64,000 nucleotides of DNA. Origin: Verrucomicrobiota bacterium (GTDB lineage: Bacteria; Verrucomicrobiota; Verrucomicrobiia; Limisphaerales; UBA8199). Position numbers and translations under genes: made by a program. How positions within the stretch are numbered: position 1 is the stretch's first letter; each line of letters opens with the position of its first letter. Of the stretch, positions 5,605 through 21,472 are shown piece by piece. Location: positions 1 to 64,000 of the forward strand of contig PSRM01000346.1 of the NCBI GenBank assembly GCA_003176045.1, written 5' to 3'. The notes under the pieces are model-generated. The model had not been told where the DNA came from, ran no database searches, and was given only the letters and a program-made list of their open reading frames with translations.

Positions 5605-6390
5605 TTAGGGCGTCTGATCCATTCGGTAGAACTGGACCGGCCCCGCGCCATTGACCATCAGACTGGTTGGGCCGTCGGACGAGACCGTGGTTTGGGCTAT
5701 CACGGCGTAAGGTCCCTGTGCAACCTGGCTAGAGTAAAGGTGATAAGTTTTGCCGGCCAACCCATACCAACTCACGGTGACGTTGTTGCCAGTTTTTTGA
5801 ATGCCCGAAATGCGGAAAATCTGACTCAGCCTGGAGCCGCCTGCGTTCCGGGTCATGTCCCAAAAAGCTTGAACTGTGGCGATTGGCTTGCCCCAACTAT
5901 CCAGCAAAGTGTAGGCCCAGGATACGGACCCGAAATTCAACGAGATGGTTTCGGAAGGCGCCGCATTCGTGAAATTGCGGTCGAAGGACGGAGCGATCCC
6001 CGTGACGATCACGTTGGTCAGCCCCAGTTCCAACACGGCGCTCTGGCCCTCGTCCAGATTGACGATTTGAAGCCGGGCACTGGCAACAGGCTTGCCCAGC
6101 GCACAGTTCTGCATGAGTACCGGCGAGGTCCTGTCCACACATTTCGCCAGCCTCAAGTCGGAAAAGTGTGCTCGCCCAGCTACTGGCGATGCCGCGGGAC
6201 TCTGATCCAGTGTCAGAATGTCAATCCAGTTCGTGCGTCCGGCATCGTGTGACTCGCCGGGAATACCTGGCAAGAACAGGTATGCTTTAAATGCCCCATG
6301 CGCTTGAACGACGAGCGATAACGCGGTAAACAGCGCGGCAAGCCGTCTGCTGATGGGTAACAAAGGGGGGATCATGCTGGATCGGCTCAT
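5605..6390 (-). CDS. Secreted Hcp-fold protein
   Basis: Signal-like N-terminus, then AYLFLPGIPGESHDAGRTNWIDILTLDQS...AHFSDLRLAKCVDRTSPVLMQNCALGK...VIVTGIAPS...ETISLNFGSVSWAY, the Hcp family pattern. Confidence 0.8.
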   Translation of the reverse strand: MSRSSMIPPLLPISRRLAALFTALSLVVQAHGAFKAYLFLPGIPGESHDAGRTNWIDILTLDQSPAASPVAGRAHFSDLRLAKCVDRTSPVLMQNCALGKPVASARLQIVNLDEGQSAVLELGLTNVIVTGIAPSFDRNFTNAAPSETISLNFGSVSWAYTLLDSWGKPIATVQAFWDMTRNAGGSRLSQIFRISGIQKTGNNVTVSWYGLAGKTYHLYSSQVAQGPYAVIAQTTVSSDGPTSLMVNGAGPVQFYRMDQTP

Positions 6391-6420
6391 GCAGATACTT
6401 TCGTTACCAGGTCAACAGTG

Positions 6421-7065
6421 TTACCAACTTGTGCCGCAACTCTGGTTCGCCGCCATGTTCCAGCAGGAGTTGACTGAGGAACCCGTGGAGCCGTCCGAGT
6501 TGACCGCAACGTATTGCATCTGAATTTGCCCAAAAGTGAAATTGACCACCTCAGCAGGCCGGGCATTGAGCCCTTCACTCGCGCTTAGGCCGGTCACTAT
6601 CACTGTGCTCAGCGTGATGATGTAAAAATCCACGGATTTGCCATTGTTCATGGATTGCACATAAAGCGTCACCGTTGGCAGGATACGGCCTGTTGCCAGG
6701 TTGTACATCAACGCTGGAGAAGCCTTATCCACAAACTTACTGACTGAGAGCTCCGAAAAGGCAACACGGCCTACCGTTGGCACCCCAGCATCGCCCATCC
6801 CCGTGATCGGCATAGTTCCAGCAAACGAAAAAGATGTGGCCACGATGTCTCCAACATGGTTCGTAGCTGTAGCCTCACCCGATATGCCGCTGACTCTTAA
6901 AAAGACATTGTATTGCTGCGCCTGACAAGCCGGCGCGATCAGCAGCATGATGAGAGTCAGGCCAGCCAGCATGAGAATTTTCGCAGTTTTGGTTTTATCG
7001 GCTGCGGCCCGCAGCGCGAGGAACTCCGGTTTGGAGCCATCCGTCTTTAATAATTTTGCTTTCAT
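6421..7065 (-). CDS. Secreted Hcp-fold protein (second copy)
   Basis: MKAKLLK start; YNVFLRVSGISGEATATNHVGDIVATSFSF...RVAFSELSVSKFVDKASPALMYNLATGR...VIVTGLSAS...VVNFTFGQIQMQYV. Confidence 0.8.
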   Translation of the reverse strand: MKAKLLKTDGSKPEFLALRAAADKTKTAKILMLAGLTLIMLLIAPACQAQQYNVFLRVSGISGEATATNHVGDIVATSFSFAGTMPITGMGDAGVPTVGRVAFSELSVSKFVDKASPALMYNLATGRILPTVTLYVQSMNNGKSVDFYIITLSTVIVTGLSASEGLNARPAEVVNFTFGQIQMQYVAVNSDGSTGSSVNSCWNMAANQSCGTSW

Positions 7066-7120
7066 AGTTGCCGTTTCGTTGCGCCCACCGGGTTTATCCA
7101 CTGGGCAGTCATGTTAAAAT

Positions 7121-7144
7121 TAAGCTTTTTGTCCGAATGGTTAC
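7121..7144 (-). promoter_or_regulatory. GTAACC-N12-AGCTTA element, site F, upstream of Hcp-like gene
   Basis: Reverse strand GTAACCATTCGGACAAAAAGCTTA. Confidence 0.4.
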
Positions 7145-7319
7145 GCAGGTTTACAACGAAGCTGCCCCCTGCTTGCCCAGGGTGACGCTCCCGCGATATG
7201 CCTGGACGGTCATGGGTTTGCTGATCGTGAGTGTTTGCGGTGACCACGATTCCGCAAATCCATGATTCCATTACTCCATCATTCCATCTCCCATCTTCCA
7301 TCTTCCACCTTGCACCTCC

Positions 7320-7350
7320 GTAACCTTTTTCCGGTTCCGCTTAAGTAGCT
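7320..7350 (+). promoter_or_regulatory. GTAACC-N12-CGCTTAAG element, site A
   Basis: GTAACCTTTTTCCGGTTCCGCTTAAGTAGCT. Confidence 0.5.
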
Positions 7351-7678
7351 CGTAACGGCTCCACGCCGCTCGTGGCTTGGTCAGGTGAAAACGGCTTGCA
7401 GCGAAAAATTTACTGTGTGTGGTTGCAGGCTACCTGAATCCGGTCTTCGTGTGAGGAACCGGACGCTGCCTCCAGGCAACGATTGTGGCGCGACGGCGCG
7501 GGCCGGTTTGGAATGCAGAAGTCAGAGCTCAGAGGTCAGTAATCAGAGCCGCGACCGTGAGGGAGCGTCCGAGCAGCAGCCAAAGTTCGAGGTTCAAAGT
7601 TCGACGTTCAAGGTTCGCCGTTTGCCCCCGTCCGATCAGTAGTCAGTGGTCCGTGGTCAGTGGTCAGTGGTCTCTTCT

Positions 7679-7709
7679 GTAACCTTTCCCCTCCCCCGCT
7701 TAAGTAGCT
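7679..7709 (+). promoter_or_regulatory. GTAACC-N12-CGCTTAAG element, site B
   Basis: GTAACCTTTCCCCTCCCCCGCTTAAGTAGCT. Confidence 0.5.
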
Positions 7710-7780
7710 CCACGTCGGCCATTGTGGGCCGGCAAGCGCGAAACTAAAACAGTAAACCAAATCAAACAGTGCTCAGCTAT

Positions 7781-9358
7781 ATGAACAACACATCATCCAT
7801 CATCCACCATCCATCATCCATCCATCCACCAATCCAGCAATCCAACAATCCGATAATCCCTCGGCCCTCGTCGTTCCTCCGCCGCTCCCTGCTGATCTGC
7901 GGCCTGGTGCTGTCTCTGGCGCGGCACGGGCATGCCCAATCAACGGCCTTCACCTACCAAGGCAAACTGAATGACGGTTCGAATCCAGCGTCGGGCCTCT
8001 ACGACATGACCTTCACATTGTTCGATTCCGCCACGGGTTTGAACCAGATCGGCCTTCCGGTCTCGGCCTTCGCCACGCCGGTTACCAACGGTCTGTTCAC
8101 TACTTCGCTCGATTTCGGGAGCGGTCCATTCACCGGACCGGCCCGCTGGCTGGAGATCCAGGTCAAAACGAACACCAGCGCTACTTATAACAAGCTCACC
8201 CCGCGCACTGCCCTCTCTCCCACCCCTTATGCCATCTACGCGCAAACGGCGGGCACGGTTACCAACAGCGCGATCACCAGCTCGAAGATTGCCTCCGGCC
8301 AGGTGGTCAAGAGCCTGAATGGGCTGACCGACGCTGTTAGCTTGGCACCGGGAACAAACGTAAGCCTGGTGCAAAGCGGCAACACGCTCACGATCAACTC
8401 CAGCGGCAGCGGTGCGTTTTCGCTCAACGGCACGAACGCCTACTACAACCGAGGTTATGTGGGCATCGGCACAACCAGCCCTGCGCATCCTTTTGAGGTG
8501 CAGGCACCGGCGGCAGGATACGACGCTTTCTCGTGGGGTATCCTGGGAACCGAAATCGGGCGACTCGGCTGCGCTGGCGGCCTCAACGTCGGTTGGCTCG
8601 GCCTGTACAACAACGGGACGCGAAATGTGGACATTCGGGCCAGCGGCCCCAGCTATCTCTTGGGTGGCAATTTCGGCATCGGCACCGCCAATCCAAGCAG
8701 CCAGCTCGATCTATTTGACGGGTCAGAAGACCTGCTTTTGAATGGAGACGGGATCGTCTTCACCCGTAGCACGGGACCGGGTTATATACAGGCCAATAAT
8801 CGCATTGATTTTGTGGTGGGTAATGGGGTCAACAACCAGGGCGGCGATGCCGGCTCGATACTTACCCTCAATAGTGATCCGAGCTTGGGTGGCCAGTGTG
8901 CAATTTTTCGCGGCCCGGTTACCGTCCCTGTACTGACGATCACCGGCGGATCCGACGTGGCCGAACCTTTCCGCATGCCTGAATGCACCCCCAAAGGCGC
9001 GGTCGTAGTGATTGATGAGAAAAATCCCGGCAATCTCAAGATCAGTGAGACCGCGTATGACACTCACGTCGCCGGCATCGTCAGCGGCGCCGACGGCATC
9101 AACCCCGGCCTCAGTCTGCATCAGGAAGGCGTGCTTGAAGGTGGCCAAAACGTCGCGCTCTCCGGCCGCGTGAAGGTGCTGGCCGACGCCTCCAACGGCG
9201 CCATCAAACCCGGCGACCTCCTGACCACTTCCGAGGTGCCTGGCCACTGTATGAAGGTCACTAACCATGGCCGCGCCCAGGGTGCCATTATTGGCAAGGC
9301 CATGAGTTCACTGGCCAGCGGCAAAGGCTATGTGCTGGTGCTGGTTTCGCTGCAGTGA
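7781..9358 (+). CDS. Secreted tail-fibre/autotransporter-stalk-like protein
   Basis: QSTAFTYQGKLNDGSNPASGLYDMTFTLFDS...LSPTPYAIYAQTAGTV; C-terminal GAIIGKAMSSLASGKGYVLVLVSLQ; paralogous N-terminus to 56719-58287. Confidence 0.75.
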   Translation: MNNTSSIIHHPSSIHPPIQQSNNPIIPRPSSFLRRSLLICGLVLSLARHGHAQSTAFTYQGKLNDGSNPASGLYDMTFTLFDSATGLNQIGLPVSAFATPVTNGLFTTSLDFGSGPFTGPARWLEIQVKTNTSATYNKLTPRTALSPTPYAIYAQTAGTVTNSAITSSKIASGQVVKSLNGLTDAVSLAPGTNVSLVQSGNTLTINSSGSGAFSLNGTNAYYNRGYVGIGTTSPAHPFEVQAPAAGYDAFSWGILGTEIGRLGCAGGLNVGWLGLYNNGTRNVDIRASGPSYLLGGNFGIGTANPSSQLDLFDGSEDLLLNGDGIVFTRSTGPGYIQANNRIDFVVGNGVNNQGGDAGSILTLNSDPSLGGQCAIFRGPVTVPVLTITGGSDVAEPFRMPECTPKGAVVVIDEKNPGNLKISETAYDTHVAGIVSGADGINPGLSLHQEGVLEGGQNVALSGRVKVLADASNGAIKPGDLLTTSEVPGHCMKVTNHGRAQGAIIGKAMSSLASGKGYVLVLVSLQ

Positions 9359-9408: not shown

Positions 9409-11004
9409 ATGAACACGAAACTTATCACGGCTGCTCTGCTGCTCCTGGCGACCGGAAGCCCCTCCCTGGCATCGCCTCGAACTGAGGCGAATGTCAGGAA
9501 AGCTGTTGAAACCTGGGTGCGCGGTGTCACCGCGGATAAACGCGCTGCCGCGGTCGTCGAAGAAATGAAACCCTACAGCCAAAACGGAACCAACGCAGCC
9601 TATATTGTGAGGTTGAAAGGTGGTGGGTACTGTCTGGCCGGGGCCGATTCGCTGGTGCTGCCGGTTTATTGGTACTCGCCTAAAGGCGCGTATGACCCTA
9701 AGAACCCGGGCTGTAAGTTCATTCTCCACGAGATCGCCGACCGCCTTAGCTACGTTCAAGCTCTACAGGCGAAGGGCGACCTGGCGCTCAAACAGCAGAA
9801 AGCCGCCCTGGATGAGCGGGCAGTACAGTGGGACGCACTGGCCGCCGGGCAGACGATCACTACCTCGGCCACGAGTTCGACTCTTTTGACCAAGAGCGCT
9901 CCAGGCATGCTCGTGCTCCCGCTCACATGCCAATGGGGCCAGGACTATCCTTTCAATGATTATTGCCCGGAACTGCCCGGATGGGGTCCAAACGGTACCC
10001 CGGGCTCCACTTTGGTCGGTTGTGTGGCTACGGCCATGGCCCAGGTAATGGATTACTGGAAGTGGCCGAATACAGGGGCCGGCCCTCCGGCCAGCGTTAC
10101 CTACAATTACCGTGGGACGAGCGGCACTTTTTCTGCACCCGTGCCCACAGATCCGGGCATTCCCTCCTTTTGGGCTGGAAAGCTAAGCTGGTCGTCAGGC
10201 TTCCTGACGATGAGCGGCTATTGGGATGCGTCGTTGCTGGGGTACGCGATGGGCATCACTGTGGACCCAACGTTTCAGAGTGCGCTCCAAAGCCTTTATG
10301 CTGAACTGACGGCTTGGAGCAGCATTTGGGCGGCGGACTTTGGCGCGACCACCTACAATTGGAGTCAAATGCTCGACCAGTATTCAGGCGATGCCGACCC
10401 GGGCGCGCTCACCGCGGCGAAGATTTCTTTTCATGCCGGGGTGGCCGTTGGCATGGACTATGGACTCAAAGGATCCGGAATCCCGGAGTCAGCCGCGGGA
10501 AGAATATCCGGCGCACTCGCCTTGCATTTCCGTTATGACCCGTCGGCCACCTGGGGCATTTTAAACATCAACATGCTCGTGAACGAGATCCAGTGGCGAC
10601 GCCCTGTGATCCTGGTTGGAGATAGCGGCAGCGTGGCCCACTGTTGGGTCGTTCTCGGCTACAACCAGCGAACCAGCCCATGGCAATTTGCCATGAATAT
10701 GGGGTGGAATGGGAGCGCCAATGGCTGGTATTCGGTAGATCAAGTGCCCCTCGGCCTGGATTACAACCAAACCGAAACAGTTCAAATTGCGCCGTTCAGT
10801 GCGGTTGGTTTTGTTGGCTCGAGCAGTTCCGGAAACGGCTCGCCCAGTTCTCCTTACTCGAACATCGAACAAGCTCTCGCGAACGCAGCCAATGGAACGA
10901 CGCTTATATTCAAAGCTGGCAGCTATAATACGTTCTCGGCCTCTCAACTGGTGCTCAACCGGCCTCTTACGCTCAAAGGAATGAACGCAACAATCGGCAA
11001 ATAG
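9409..11004 (+). CDS. Secreted C10-family (streptopain-like) cysteine peptidase
   Basis: Signal peptide; propeptide-like region; TLVGCVATAMAQVMDYWKWP (Cys motif) and AHCWVVLGYN (His motif). Confidence 0.88.
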   Translation: MNTKLITAALLLLATGSPSLASPRTEANVRKAVETWVRGVTADKRAAAVVEEMKPYSQNGTNAAYIVRLKGGGYCLAGADSLVLPVYWYSPKGAYDPKNPGCKFILHEIADRLSYVQALQAKGDLALKQQKAALDERAVQWDALAAGQTITTSATSSTLLTKSAPGMLVLPLTCQWGQDYPFNDYCPELPGWGPNGTPGSTLVGCVATAMAQVMDYWKWPNTGAGPPASVTYNYRGTSGTFSAPVPTDPGIPSFWAGKLSWSSGFLTMSGYWDASLLGYAMGITVDPTFQSALQSLYAELTAWSSIWAADFGATTYNWSQMLDQYSGDADPGALTAAKISFHAGVAVGMDYGLKGSGIPESAAGRISGALALHFRYDPSATWGILNINMLVNEIQWRRPVILVGDSGSVAHCWVVLGYNQRTSPWQFAMNMGWNGSANGWYSVDQVPLGLDYNQTETVQIAPFSAVGFVGSSSSGNGSPSSPYSNIEQALANAANGTTLIFKAGSYNTFSASQLVLNRPLTLKGMNATIGK

Positions 11005-16651: not shown

Positions 16652-16732
16652 GGCATTGAGTCTCTCGAGCAATCGTGCACTCTAATGTGGTTACATAGCA
16701 ATCGTTTTACGATCACCGACGGTTTGTCTTAG

Positions 16733-16962
16733 TCCCACAGGGACGGCAGATAATAGCCCAGCGTTTCAATTTCAACGCTGGGTTTATAACGTCCGAATGA
16801 AATTAGTCCCGTAGGGACGGCAGAAAAAGAACGGTTTCTGTCGTCCCTACGAAGTTGTGAAGAAATCCAAAACCCACGTAGCAGCCGAGGTAACGAGGCT
16901 CTGAAATCCTTACGCACGAGCAGGTTACAAAATGATTAGAGCCTCGTCACCTCGGCTGCTAC
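16733..16962. repeat. Cluster of palindromic repeats
   Basis: AGTCCCACAGGGACGGCAGA / AGTCCCGTAGGGACGGCAGA, and inverted repeat 16878-16903 / 16936-16962 (GTAGCAGCCGAGGTAACGAGGCTCTGA). Confidence 0.8.
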
Positions 16963-18298: not shown

Positions 18299-18411
18299 TG
18301 AAAACGAAAGCGCGGGAATGCCGCGCACTCCAAACGCTTCGCGAGGCACCAAGCGTTCCCGAACTCGCAAAGCGTTTGGAGTGCGGCGCATTCCGCCGCT
18401 TTGGATGCGCG
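18299..18411. repeat. Palindromic interspersed repeat, family R1
   Basis: GGGAATGCCGCGCACTCCAAACGCTTCGCGA ... CGCAAAGCGTTTGGAGTGCGGCGCATTCCGCCGCTTTGGA; half copy at 18640-18692. Confidence 0.8.
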
Positions 18412-18802
18412 ATCCCCACGGTGCACTAAAGGGATACTTCGGGAGTGCGTTTGCCCGTACACGCAAACCGAGGATAGCGACTCCGCTCTTTCGGAACACC
18501 TCACTTTGACTCATGCGACCACCGTAAACACGCGTGCGGCAGAACCATCCTAAACAGGGCCTGGCGTAAGGGCTGGGCTGGAGGACACAATCCCGTTGCC
18601 ATTGAGCACTGGTCCTGCGTTCCGTCTCGTCGCCGCCATCCAAAGCGGCGGAATACGCCGCACTCCAAACGCTCCGCGCGATTCGTAAGCCCTCGGGTTC
18701 ATTCTGGCGCCACTGGATTATGGTGCGAAACATGACTCTAAAGTTATCATCTTTATGAATTTTCGCCTAGCACAACTCTCCATCCCGGAACATACTCCTC
18801 CC

Positions 18803-20515
18803 ATGATTACGGAACTGGGAATCGCCAATTTCAAAGCCTTCGGCGAAATGCAGCGGGTGCCCATTAAACCCCTCACGCTCATCTTTGGCCCAAATGCCTC
18901 GGGGAAGTCGAGCATCATCCAGACCCTGCTCCTCGCGCGCCATGGAATGTACGCCGACGAGAAGGAAAGCAGCTTGGGGCCTGGTCTTGACGGCGGTGTC
19001 CATCTCGGCGGTTTTCCCAACTTCGTGCATAAACAGGACAGGAGCCGAAACGTTGTCGTGAGATTGGAAACTGCCAAAAAAGAGGGTGCATACTTGGATT
19101 TAGATGGGGATTCCCGAGAATCCAATCCGCTGCAACAGTGTTCGCGCTTTGCGATCGAACTCCAGTTCGGGCTGCCCGAGGAGGGGAAAGTGCCGAAGGC
19201 CATGGCGGCTCTTCCCCACGTAAGGCTTCTGGACATATTCATGGATGGCCGTCGGGCGGTTAGCCTTCACGGTTGCTATGGCTCGTGCAACTGTCGGATG
19301 GTAGATTCAGACCATCCGCTCCTGGAGGCATCCCTTGCAACTATCTTGAAGTGGTCTCTCTCAAGCTCGAAGGAGCCTTTGGAACAGCAATTAAGAGAGC
19401 TTGCTCGACGGCGGCTTGCAGCTCGCTTGAGTGAGGCAAATTTTCGAGCCGAAATTCTCGGAGAAGGAGCCAGTGTAAGCGCTGCAGATCTGCTGAAAGA
19501 TGAACCTAGCCTCGGGGAGGTTTCCATTGAGAGTGAACTAGCCGTTTTGAAACAGGTTTTTTCTAAGGCCATGGTTGGGCGCCTTTTCTTGCTTCTCGCA
19601 ACCAGATTGCAAGATCTTGGGCCGTACAATGGTCACAACCGCCAAATTTGGGACGAGTGGCTCAATCGGGGAGACGGCACAGAAGGGTTTGATGACCGGC
19701 CCGATGGAAGCTTGACTACATTCTTCAAGTATCATCGAGAAGAAGAGGAAGATGCGGAAAATTGGTGGCCAGAAGCGCAGGCGATCTGTCACAATCTCGG
19801 AAGGCTTATCGAGGAGTTCACTGACCAGATCACTCGGAGCCTTTCATCGGTGCACCACCTCGGCCCAGTTCGTCGCGTTCCTGGCCGACACGACTGGAGA
19901 ATCGGCGCTTATGAACCCCGAGAAGATGAGAAAGTTAACGAGTGGCTTGGCAAGCTCGGAACATGTTACCTCCGAAAAACACGTAGATGGATCGCCGAGC
20001 AAGATCCCGCTGTCGATCAGGCAGTCAACCCTCCACCCACATTGTTTGAGCCTCTTCTACATGACACCGGGACTAATACCGTCCTGAGTGTACACGATGT
20101 CGGCTTCGGCATCGGACAAGTTCTGCCCATCCTGGAAAGTGCGGCCGCACTCCGAGAACGCCTCATCGCGATCGAACAACCCGAAGCTCAATTGCACCCA
20201 GCACAACAAGCCGAACTTGGCGACATTTTCATCGAATCAGCCTTGGGAGAACGCAAGAACACGTTCATTCTGGAAACCCATAGCGAGCACCTTATTCTAC
20301 GGATCATGCGAAGAATTCGTGATACAACGAAGGGCGGCGACGCTTTACCAAAAGGCTTGCCAAGTGTTCGGCCGCGCGATGTAGCCGTTCTTTACGTCGA
20401 GCGCCAGGGCGATCACAGTATCGTTCGGGAGATGCCATTGAACGAGAGTGGGGAACTCGTAAAGGCCTGGCCAGGTGGATTTTTTGAGGAGTCCTTCAAC
20501 GAGATGTTCGCCTGA
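18803..20515 (+). CDS. AAA-family ATPase, DUF3696 type
   Basis: Walker A GPNASGKSS; IEQPEAQLHP Walker B; ETHSEHLILRIMRRI; C-terminal VAVLYVERQGDHSIVREMPLNESGELVKAWPGGFFEESFNEMF. Confidence 0.88.
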   Translation: MITELGIANFKAFGEMQRVPIKPLTLIFGPNASGKSSIIQTLLLARHGMYADEKESSLGPGLDGGVHLGGFPNFVHKQDRSRNVVVRLETAKKEGAYLDLDGDSRESNPLQQCSRFAIELQFGLPEEGKVPKAMAALPHVRLLDIFMDGRRAVSLHGCYGSCNCRMVDSDHPLLEASLATILKWSLSSSKEPLEQQLRELARRRLAARLSEANFRAEILGEGASVSAADLLKDEPSLGEVSIESELAVLKQVFSKAMVGRLFLLLATRLQDLGPYNGHNRQIWDEWLNRGDGTEGFDDRPDGSLTTFFKYHREEEEDAENWWPEAQAICHNLGRLIEEFTDQITRSLSSVHHLGPVRRVPGRHDWRIGAYEPREDEKVNEWLGKLGTCYLRKTRRWIAEQDPAVDQAVNPPPTLFEPLLHDTGTNTVLSVHDVGFGIGQVLPILESAAALRERLIAIEQPEAQLHPAQQAELGDIFIESALGERKNTFILETHSEHLILRIMRRIRDTTKGGDALPKGLPSVRPRDVAVLYVERQGDHSIVREMPLNESGELVKAWPGGFFEESFNEMFA

Positions 20516-20518
20516 AAA

Positions 20519-21472
20519 ATGGTGTTCTACGTTTATCTGGATCCGCCGGTCTTTGAGGCAGCGGCTGCAGGTGGCCAGATGGCACTGCAGTTACTCACAG
20601 CAATCCTTCGCGGTTTCCTTCAAAATTGCGTGCTTCTGGAATTCGACGACTATCGCTGGGACACTGCAGTTCGCCGCGCTGTAAACTCTCAGGAGAAAAC
20701 TTTCGATCGGTCGGCTATCAAGAAACTTCTTGTTCAACTCCAGAGGCGCAATCGGATAGTTCCCTTTTTCAAGGATGACTACTCGGGCCTGCCTGACCTC
20801 GAATTTGTGGTGCAGCAGGCCTCTGCGGCTGGGCTCGACCTTATCTTGAGTGTCCAAACCGTTTCACTTCCGTCCAATTGCTCCTGCGAAGCAGCCATCT
20901 TGGGCACGTACCAGGAGAGCGAATTTGAGGACCAACGCGCGGAAACAGCCGCGAATGGCCGTGAGTATAAGCACGGGGAAATGGGGGAGGAACAGTTCCT
21001 ACTGACAACTTTTCAGAAGTTCATTCGTCACGCTAGGCGGATTGAGGTTTGTGATGCTGTCTGTGGCCGTTATTTCGGCGATAATTTCAAATACACGCTC
21101 AAGAAATTCTTGGCGTTTCTCGATTCCGCCTTGGTCGACCCGGCCGTATGCGAACTGATCCTCCATTGCGAGAAATCTGAGCGCGATCAGTATCTACTGA
21201 GCGAGCTCACCTCATTTCGGACAGCGCGCCTTGCGCAGATGCCGATTTCCGTCTGCTTTTACGACCCCATCAACGGTCAACAATGCTTGCCGCACGAGCG
21301 TTACATCTGCACCGATCAGTTTGGGTTACAAATCGGGCGCGGGATGGACTTCCTTGATCGAGCAACCGCCCGGAACCGCGATATCAGCGTGAGCTTCAAG
21401 CCTTGGAATGTTCTGAGCACTAAATTAACACCCTACCAGTGTTTCAAGCTGGCCCCGGTCCAGATTCCATGA
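20519..21472 (+). CDS. Protein with C-terminal MIT_C/PLD-like domain
   Basis: RRIEVCDAVCGRYFGDNFKYTLKKFLAFLD ... LPHERYICTDQFGLQIGRGMDFLD resembles the MITD1 C-terminal HDRxI..NGWxIxIGRGLDYF pattern; 3 bp after upstream stop. Confidence 0.6.
   Translation: MVFYVYLDPPVFEAAAAGGQMALQLLTAILRGFLQNCVLLEFDDYRWDTAVRRAVNSQEKTFDRSAIKKLLVQLQRRNRIVPFFKDDYSGLPDLEFVVQQASAAGLDLILSVQTVSLPSNCSCEAAILGTYQESEFEDQRAETAANGREYKHGEMGEEQFLLTTFQKFIRHARRIEVCDAVCGRYFGDNFKYTLKKFLAFLDSALVDPAVCELILHCEKSERDQYLLSELTSFRTARLAQMPISVCFYDPINGQQCLPHERYICTDQFGLQIGRGMDFLDRATARNRDISVSFKPWNVLSTKLTPYQCFKLAPVQIP

Follow-up and report, generated by a model that had tools for sequence, protein, structure and literature searches.

The window analysed here is the whole stretch of 64,000 nucleotides of a Verrucomicrobiota contig. 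It contains two intact open reading frames on the forward strand, gene A (18803..20515, 570 aa) and gene B (20519..21472, 317 aa), the second beginning 3 bp after the first. An alternative in-frame ATG at 18755 would extend gene A by 16 aa if used. Pfam analysis of gene A gave AAA_15 (6.4e-20), AAA_21 (2.8e-15), and, at residues 524-568, DUF3696 (PF12476; 20372..20506; 7.4e-7), all above the cut-off, and no Toprim domain. The Walker A sequence GPNASGKSS lies at 18887..18913, the Walker B/signature region IEQPEAQLHP at 20171..20200, and the ETHSEH motif at 20273..20290, all on the forward strand; EQPE...HP and ETHSE were each invariant in nine homologues. The Walker A, EQPE..HP, and THSE motifs together with the DUF3696 tail identify gene A as an OLD-like ABC ATPase. 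An earlier sequence-only reading of this DNA had described the two frames, their 3-bp spacing, the three motifs, and a DUF3696-like end, all of which were confirmed by the sequence and by Pfam.

The window copy is surrounded by LysR, DUF885, ClpX-like AAA, and DUF4202 genes, and no recognised defence gene was found beside it or beside the G437 copy. The system had been described as flanked by palindromic repeats. These are present at 18307-18402 and 18637-18678, yet they belong to a REP-like element, often arranged in inverted pairs with a spacing of some 40 bp, which occurs 147 times in the genome; the element is therefore not part of the system and was ruled out as its boundary. An Acido-Lenti-1 RNA (Rfam RF01687, 48.5 bits) was found at 16731-16782 on the reverse strand.

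Domains and conserved residues of gene B

No family match to gene B was obtained in Pfam, PADLOC, NCBIfam, or PHROGs. Its N-terminal domain (residues ~1-155; 20519..20983, +) has no known relatives in the family databases, in agreement with the earlier statement that the first ~160 residues matched nothing recognised. A mixed alpha/beta structure was predicted for it at low confidence, the AlphaFold2 pLDDT being mostly below 50. The order of predicted strands and helices had suggested a PIN-like N-terminus; this reading was dropped because hhalign against PIN-type partners was non-significant (E 0.08-0.2) and the AlphaFold2 confidence was below 50 across most of the region. Few positions of the N-terminal half are common to divergent partners, whereas two residues of the C-terminal half, H259 and R261, are invariant.

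The AlphaFold2 prediction, which was run on a 14-row alignment, was confident for the C-terminal half (residues ~150-305), with pLDDT mostly 75-91. When the model was compared with the PDB by Foldseek, the top three matches were MITD1 (2ymb, 4a5z; E 1.6e-4 to 4.3e-4), followed by phospholipases D. For a model of the divergent relative L026, a phospholipase D ranked first (E 1.6e-5), and MITD1 was absent among the matches listed. A PLD/MIT_C fold, on which the sequence-only reading depended, is thus what was found, with MITD1 at the top for the window protein and phospholipases D at the top for the divergent relative.

Profile comparisons gave the same assignment. A profile built from five gene B relatives matched the MIT_C domain of a BrxL protein (4.5e-5), and that BrxL fits MIT_C at 1.8e-38. 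By hhalign, the whole gene B family matched BrxL MIT_C with an E of about 1e-11 to 3e-12, and four separately aligned subgroups gave 4e-8 to 4e-5 each, whereas four unrelated partner families used as controls gave E values of at least 0.1. Against the curated 25-bit cut-off of Pfam MIT_C (PF16565), gene B of the window gave no match and the best relative (L002) reached 14.8 bits (E 0.028). Because of the BrxL MIT_C profile match, the hhalign results with their controls, and the three leading Foldseek matches, the likeness of gene B to MITD1 is not due to chance, and the resemblance to the C-terminal PLD-like domain of MITD1 noticed in the sequence-only reading was borne out. Gene B thus contains, at residues ~157-305 (20987..21433, +), the MITD1 C-terminal PLD-like fold with profile-level homology to MIT_C.

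Apart from the initial Met, four residues were invariant in the 21 sequences of the gene B family: D179, H259, R261, and G275. D179 (21053..21055, +) ends an hhhhD strand, and H259 and R261 belong to the HxRx4D half-motif HERYICTD (21293..21316, +), of which each chain carries one. The Lys of the HKD motif of phospholipases D is Arg in all 21 partners, and the motif Asp (D266 in gene B) is variable: some members have N, E, K, or A instead. Gene B therefore shares the PLD fold with the catalytic PLD/HKD superfamily but not its HxKx4D motif with Lys and Asp. Human MITD1 has the matching D (in DPYIR), HxR, and G, the invariant D...HxR...G pattern lying in HDREIRFNNGWMIKIGRG. The motif HERYICTDQFGLQIGRGMDFLD, with which gene B had been said to end, comprises residues 259-280 and is followed by 37 further residues, so it does not form the extreme C-terminus.

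Recurrence and surroundings of the pair

About 23 relatives of gene B were collected from Verrucomicrobiota, Pseudomonadota, Deinococcota, and viral contigs, and all of them come immediately after a DUF3696 ATPase gene. Iterated profiles started from five verrucomicrobial partners gathered 23 members of one family and then stopped. In the partner-led search, the partner occurred in 5 of 384 genomes of the class, in addition to further places; the verrucomicrobial carriers include two MAGs, one of an Akkermansia and one from groundwater. Every partner found by partner-led searches directly followed a DUF3696 ATPase, so the pair proved to be conserved. Since many relatives were reached via the ATPase, the overall count of pairings is biased; the partner-led searches agree with it and cover only about ten places.

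No match was obtained when the window protein was used to search plasmids and phages for partners, and the first viral and genome scans with partner peptide patterns returned nothing or only two loci already known, because the patterns were too strict; the partner alignment has no stretch conserved enough for scanning. The ATPase-led scan worked, and detected the ATPase on 80 IMG/VR contigs. The ATPase was also present on plasmids of Deinococcus, Methylocella, Azotobacter, Azospirillum, and Vibrio, and in both the plasmid and the IMG/VR sets the downstream gene overlaps or abuts it. DUF3696 ATPases of viral contigs (L037-L102, IMG/VR) were paired with at least 10 unrelated downstream gene families, three of them large (22, 13, and 12 members). 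In three copies (L029, 6001-7551; L004/L008 of G437; L015) the ATPase gene is divided between two ORFs or looks truncated or frameshifted, which may reflect decay or an assembly error.

The two genes are closely coupled. In the 20 pairs examined, the intergenic gap ranged from -14 to +14 bp, with a 1-bp overlap in eight. The pairwise divergence of the ATPases correlated with that of their partners (r = 0.77; none of 2000 permutations as high), as would be expected if the two genes travel as a unit. In a maximum-likelihood tree, 20 of the 22 ATPases with a gene B-type partner fell into one clade (100/97), and the remaining two (L039 and L040) grouped together elsewhere. ATPases with PIN-type partners formed a clade of their own, and both these and the ATPases with other partners were separate from the gene B-type clade.

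Mosaic operons (L018, L026, L027, L028, and L030) contain either swapped partners or similar partners with different N-terminal halves of the ATPase. The C-terminal halves of the L018, L026, and L028 ATPases are 90-94% identical, whereas their partners share only 31-56% identity, and the DNA identity drops from ~0.85 to 0.55 some 150 bp inside the partner gene. The reverse was seen between L028 and L030, whose partners are similar (82-83%) and whose ATPases are less so (57-73%). A mosaic of this kind is typical of conflict genes.

In the Akkermansia MAG and another Verrucomicrobium (L012 and L011), the pair comes after hsdR-hsdM-hsdS. It is also embedded in type I R-M operons on four viral contigs and on Methylocella, Azotobacter, and Vibrio plasmids. 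Among the viral loci, HsdM was encoded close to 4 of the 14 that have a gene B-type partner, the four being related to each other, as against 0 of the 66 with other partners. In L034 the pair adjoins a BREX BrxL, which has an MIT_C domain of its own, and PglZ; on a Deinococcus plasmid (L017) it adjoins an Argonaute-like (Piwi-domain) gene and a DUF2357 gene; and in Methylocella it is also beside SIR2 and DUF87 genes. In L010 the divergent neighbour is a CRISPR-associated Cas_NE0113 gene (9868-10983, +), followed by HsdM and, by eye, RmuC-like genes. Judging by the neighbouring ORFs, several of the loci seem to belong to prophages or phages. Two further genes were observed within the R-M operons. 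In L011 a second AAA_15 ATPase (4e-67; 6154-7956, +) separates hsdS from the DUF3696 ATPase, so that this operon holds two OLD-like genes. In L026 (5438-5995, +), and also in L028, a 186-aa ORF without a Pfam match lies between hsdS and the ATPase; it contains YVGRTG, reminiscent of GIY-YIG proteins.

Surroundings of this kind, with R-M, BREX, Argonaute, or prophage genes, were found for relatives and not for the window copy, which lies among ordinary genes. Likewise, many relatives are encoded within or beside R-M genes, as is characteristic of R-M guardians, and the window copy is not. With the window copy lying outside any defence island, it is the relatives that supply the evidence for defence.

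Proposed function and alternatives

The pair recurs on bacterial, phage, and plasmid DNA, often in restriction-enzyme operons, and it is therefore probably a defence module, namely a virus-defence module that has not yet been catalogued. It is most likely of the R-M guardian type, with a PLD-like effector. The analysis shows the pairing and coupling of the genes, the PLD/MIT_C fold, the invariant residues, the tie to one ATPase clade, and the R-M, BREX, and prophage surroundings of relatives; we infer a defence function for the pair, a sensor role for gene A, and dimerisation, catalysis, and a nucleic-acid substrate for gene B. On balance, we consider it somewhat likely that this two-gene module acts against phages or mobile DNA with the OLD-like ATPase as the sensor or switch and gene B as a nucleic-acid-cutting effector. 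The main proposal of the sequence-only reading, an ATPase sensor with a membrane- or nucleic-acid-targeting effector, was largely right: the pairing and the fold hold, and the sensor role is what we also infer.

Gene A belongs to the DUF3696 branch of OLD-like ABC ATPases and either lost a Toprim nuclease or never had one; it would most likely serve as a sensor and ATP-driven switch. On the model of PARIS and PrrC, it may be triggered by infection itself or when a restriction system next to it is inhibited. Once triggered, gene A would release or activate gene B, whose N-terminal domain is probably a part for docking to the ATPase or for control. Because there is one half-motif per chain, a dimer would be required if gene B is catalytic; two H259/R261 half-sites would then form a single phosphodiesterase site, and the dimer would cut nucleic acid, leading to restriction or abortive infection. 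The invariant His and Arg favour phosphate chemistry or binding, and the variable motif Asp weakens the case for catalysis.

The same module could instead act on membranes. In that case the MIT_C domain would bind acidic phospholipid like MITD1, or hydrolyse phospholipid, and perturb the envelope so that infection is aborted. The closest solved fold to gene B is indeed that of MITD1, whose PLD fold binds membranes according to the passages of PMC9776629 and PMC9477494 that refer to Hadders et al. 2012; furthermore, the D...HxR...G pattern is common to MITD1 and the gene B family, and the motif Asp is conserved in neither. However, the MIT_C domain of BrxL rides on a helicase-like ATPase acting on DNA, where it is regarded as a DNase (PMC12839542), and the surroundings of the relatives are those of DNA restriction. 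We therefore regard a membrane effector as possible but rather unlikely, and cutting of nucleic acid as the first choice.

Alternatively, the PLD-like domain may be a sensor binding a ligand or nucleotide, comparable to the inactive PLD folds of TrmB-like proteins, with the N-terminal domain as the effector. TrmBL2, a non-enzymatic DNA-binding protein, was among the fold matches of L026, the K-to-R replacement and the variable Asp suggest a possible loss of catalysis, and the first half of gene B is as big as a whole effector. Nevertheless, the invariance of H259 and R261 in very divergent partners speaks for the C-terminal half as the seat of an active or phosphate-binding site, which makes this arrangement distinctly improbable. 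That the pair has a housekeeping or DNA-repair role without conflict, its proximity to R-M genes reflecting hitch-hiking on mobile islands, would suit the ordinary neighbourhood of the window copy but is very improbable in view of the sporadic spread in the class, carriage on plasmids and viral contigs, embedding in hsd operons of unrelated phyla, adjacency to BREX, and near-identical ATPases with strongly differing partners.

Comparison with known systems

PADLOC 2.0 gave no match to a named system. Gene A merely resembles the models of PDC-M55A (2.9e-42), Menshen NsnB (2e-40), HEC-03B (1.8e-32), and AriA of PARIS (4.6e-21), and no partner model matched. The claim that the system was undescribed thus met no named system to contradict it. 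It stands for the pairing of the ATPase with an MIT_C/PLD partner, which was absent from PADLOC 2.0 and the examined literature, with an earlier mention in the 2020 ABC-ATPase classification being possible; it does not stand for the general layout of an OLD-like ATPase plus effector, which was already known. OLD-ABC ATPases with Toprim, HNH, PD-(D/E)XK, or PIN nucleases have been described as backup effectors (PMC12839542).

Despite the similarity of gene A to NsnB and PDC-M55A, the NsnA, NsnC, and PDC-M55 partner models of PADLOC were matched neither by gene B nor by its relatives. The PADLOC candidate HEC-03 (HEC-03B ATPase and HEC-03A) also combines a DUF3696 ATPase with a small downstream partner whose gene overlaps that of the ATPase; however, that partner starts PIN-like by our reading of its sequence, HEC-03 ATPases fall into another clade, and gene B did not match HEC-03A by PADLOC or hhalign. 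PARIS (AriA and AriB) likewise consists of an OLD-like ABC ATPase with a separate effector and shares the guardian logic, but AriB is a Toprim nuclease, and gene B gave no PADLOC match to the Toprim/DUF4435 effector and has the PLD fold instead. Unlike OLD nuclease and GajA of Gabija, gene A has no C-terminal Toprim domain, and the downstream gene B is not a GajB-type helicase. Together with PARIS, PrrC has been described as a guardian sensing inhibition of R-M enzymes (PMC12707154). The PrrC/RloC guardians resemble many relatives of the pair in their hsd-operon position and in the proposed trigger, whereas PrrC is a single protein with an anticodon nuclease; gene B is likened to it by operon position and not by effector homology.

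The C-terminal HKD/HRD domain of BrxL in type 1 BREX is Pfam MIT_C, with the PLD fold, HxR, and invariant D as in gene B. In BrxL, however, it is fused to an MCM-type AAA+ ATPase, whereas gene B is separate, has a novel N-terminus and an OLD-like ABC ATPase as its partner, and lacks the BrxL N-terminal and ATPase domains according to Pfam and PADLOC. A BREX survey (PMC12839542) read the HRD domain of BrxL as an endoDNase with a K-to-R substitution and placed HKD domains on BrxL and helicases, not beside OLD-ABC ATPases. Gene A/B falls outside PARIS, Gabija, HEC-03, Menshen, and BREX, since tests for the partners that define these systems came out negative.

Human MITD1, an ESCRT-III-binding protein, shares with gene B the C-terminal PLD-like domain, of which it is the top fold match, and the D, HxR, and G residues. 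It differs in its N-terminal MIT domain, to which the N-terminus of gene B is unrelated, in its role in cytokinesis, and in that gene B has an ATPase partner. A phmmer comparison matched the C-terminal domain of BrxL (L034:8650-10719, -; L016; L104) directly to human MITD1 (E 3.2e-15). The 'HKD endoDNase' of PMC12839542, in which MITD1 is unmentioned, is the MITD1 C-terminal domain.

These findings point to a new type of effector, an MIT_C/PLD domain with HxR, for the known layout of an OLD-like ATPase plus effector, one ATPase clade being tied to this partner in three phyla or more, as well as on plasmids and viral contigs. Since many copies sit within type I R-M operons, the guardian hypothesis is concrete and testable. 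The 'HKD endoDNase' of BrxL, the gene B effector, and the C-terminal part of human MITD1 belong to a single domain family, so that one may ask what role the domain plays in bacteria and how the eukaryotic version arose. In a wider and unlikely scenario, DUF3696 ATPases controlling MITD1-type PLD effectors would form a widespread unnamed guardian family, the domain having been exchanged between stand-alone guardians and BrxL of BREX. It would be the prokaryotic counterpart, and perhaps even the source, of the membrane-binding domain of eukaryotic MITD1, with at least some members acting on membranes rather than DNA.
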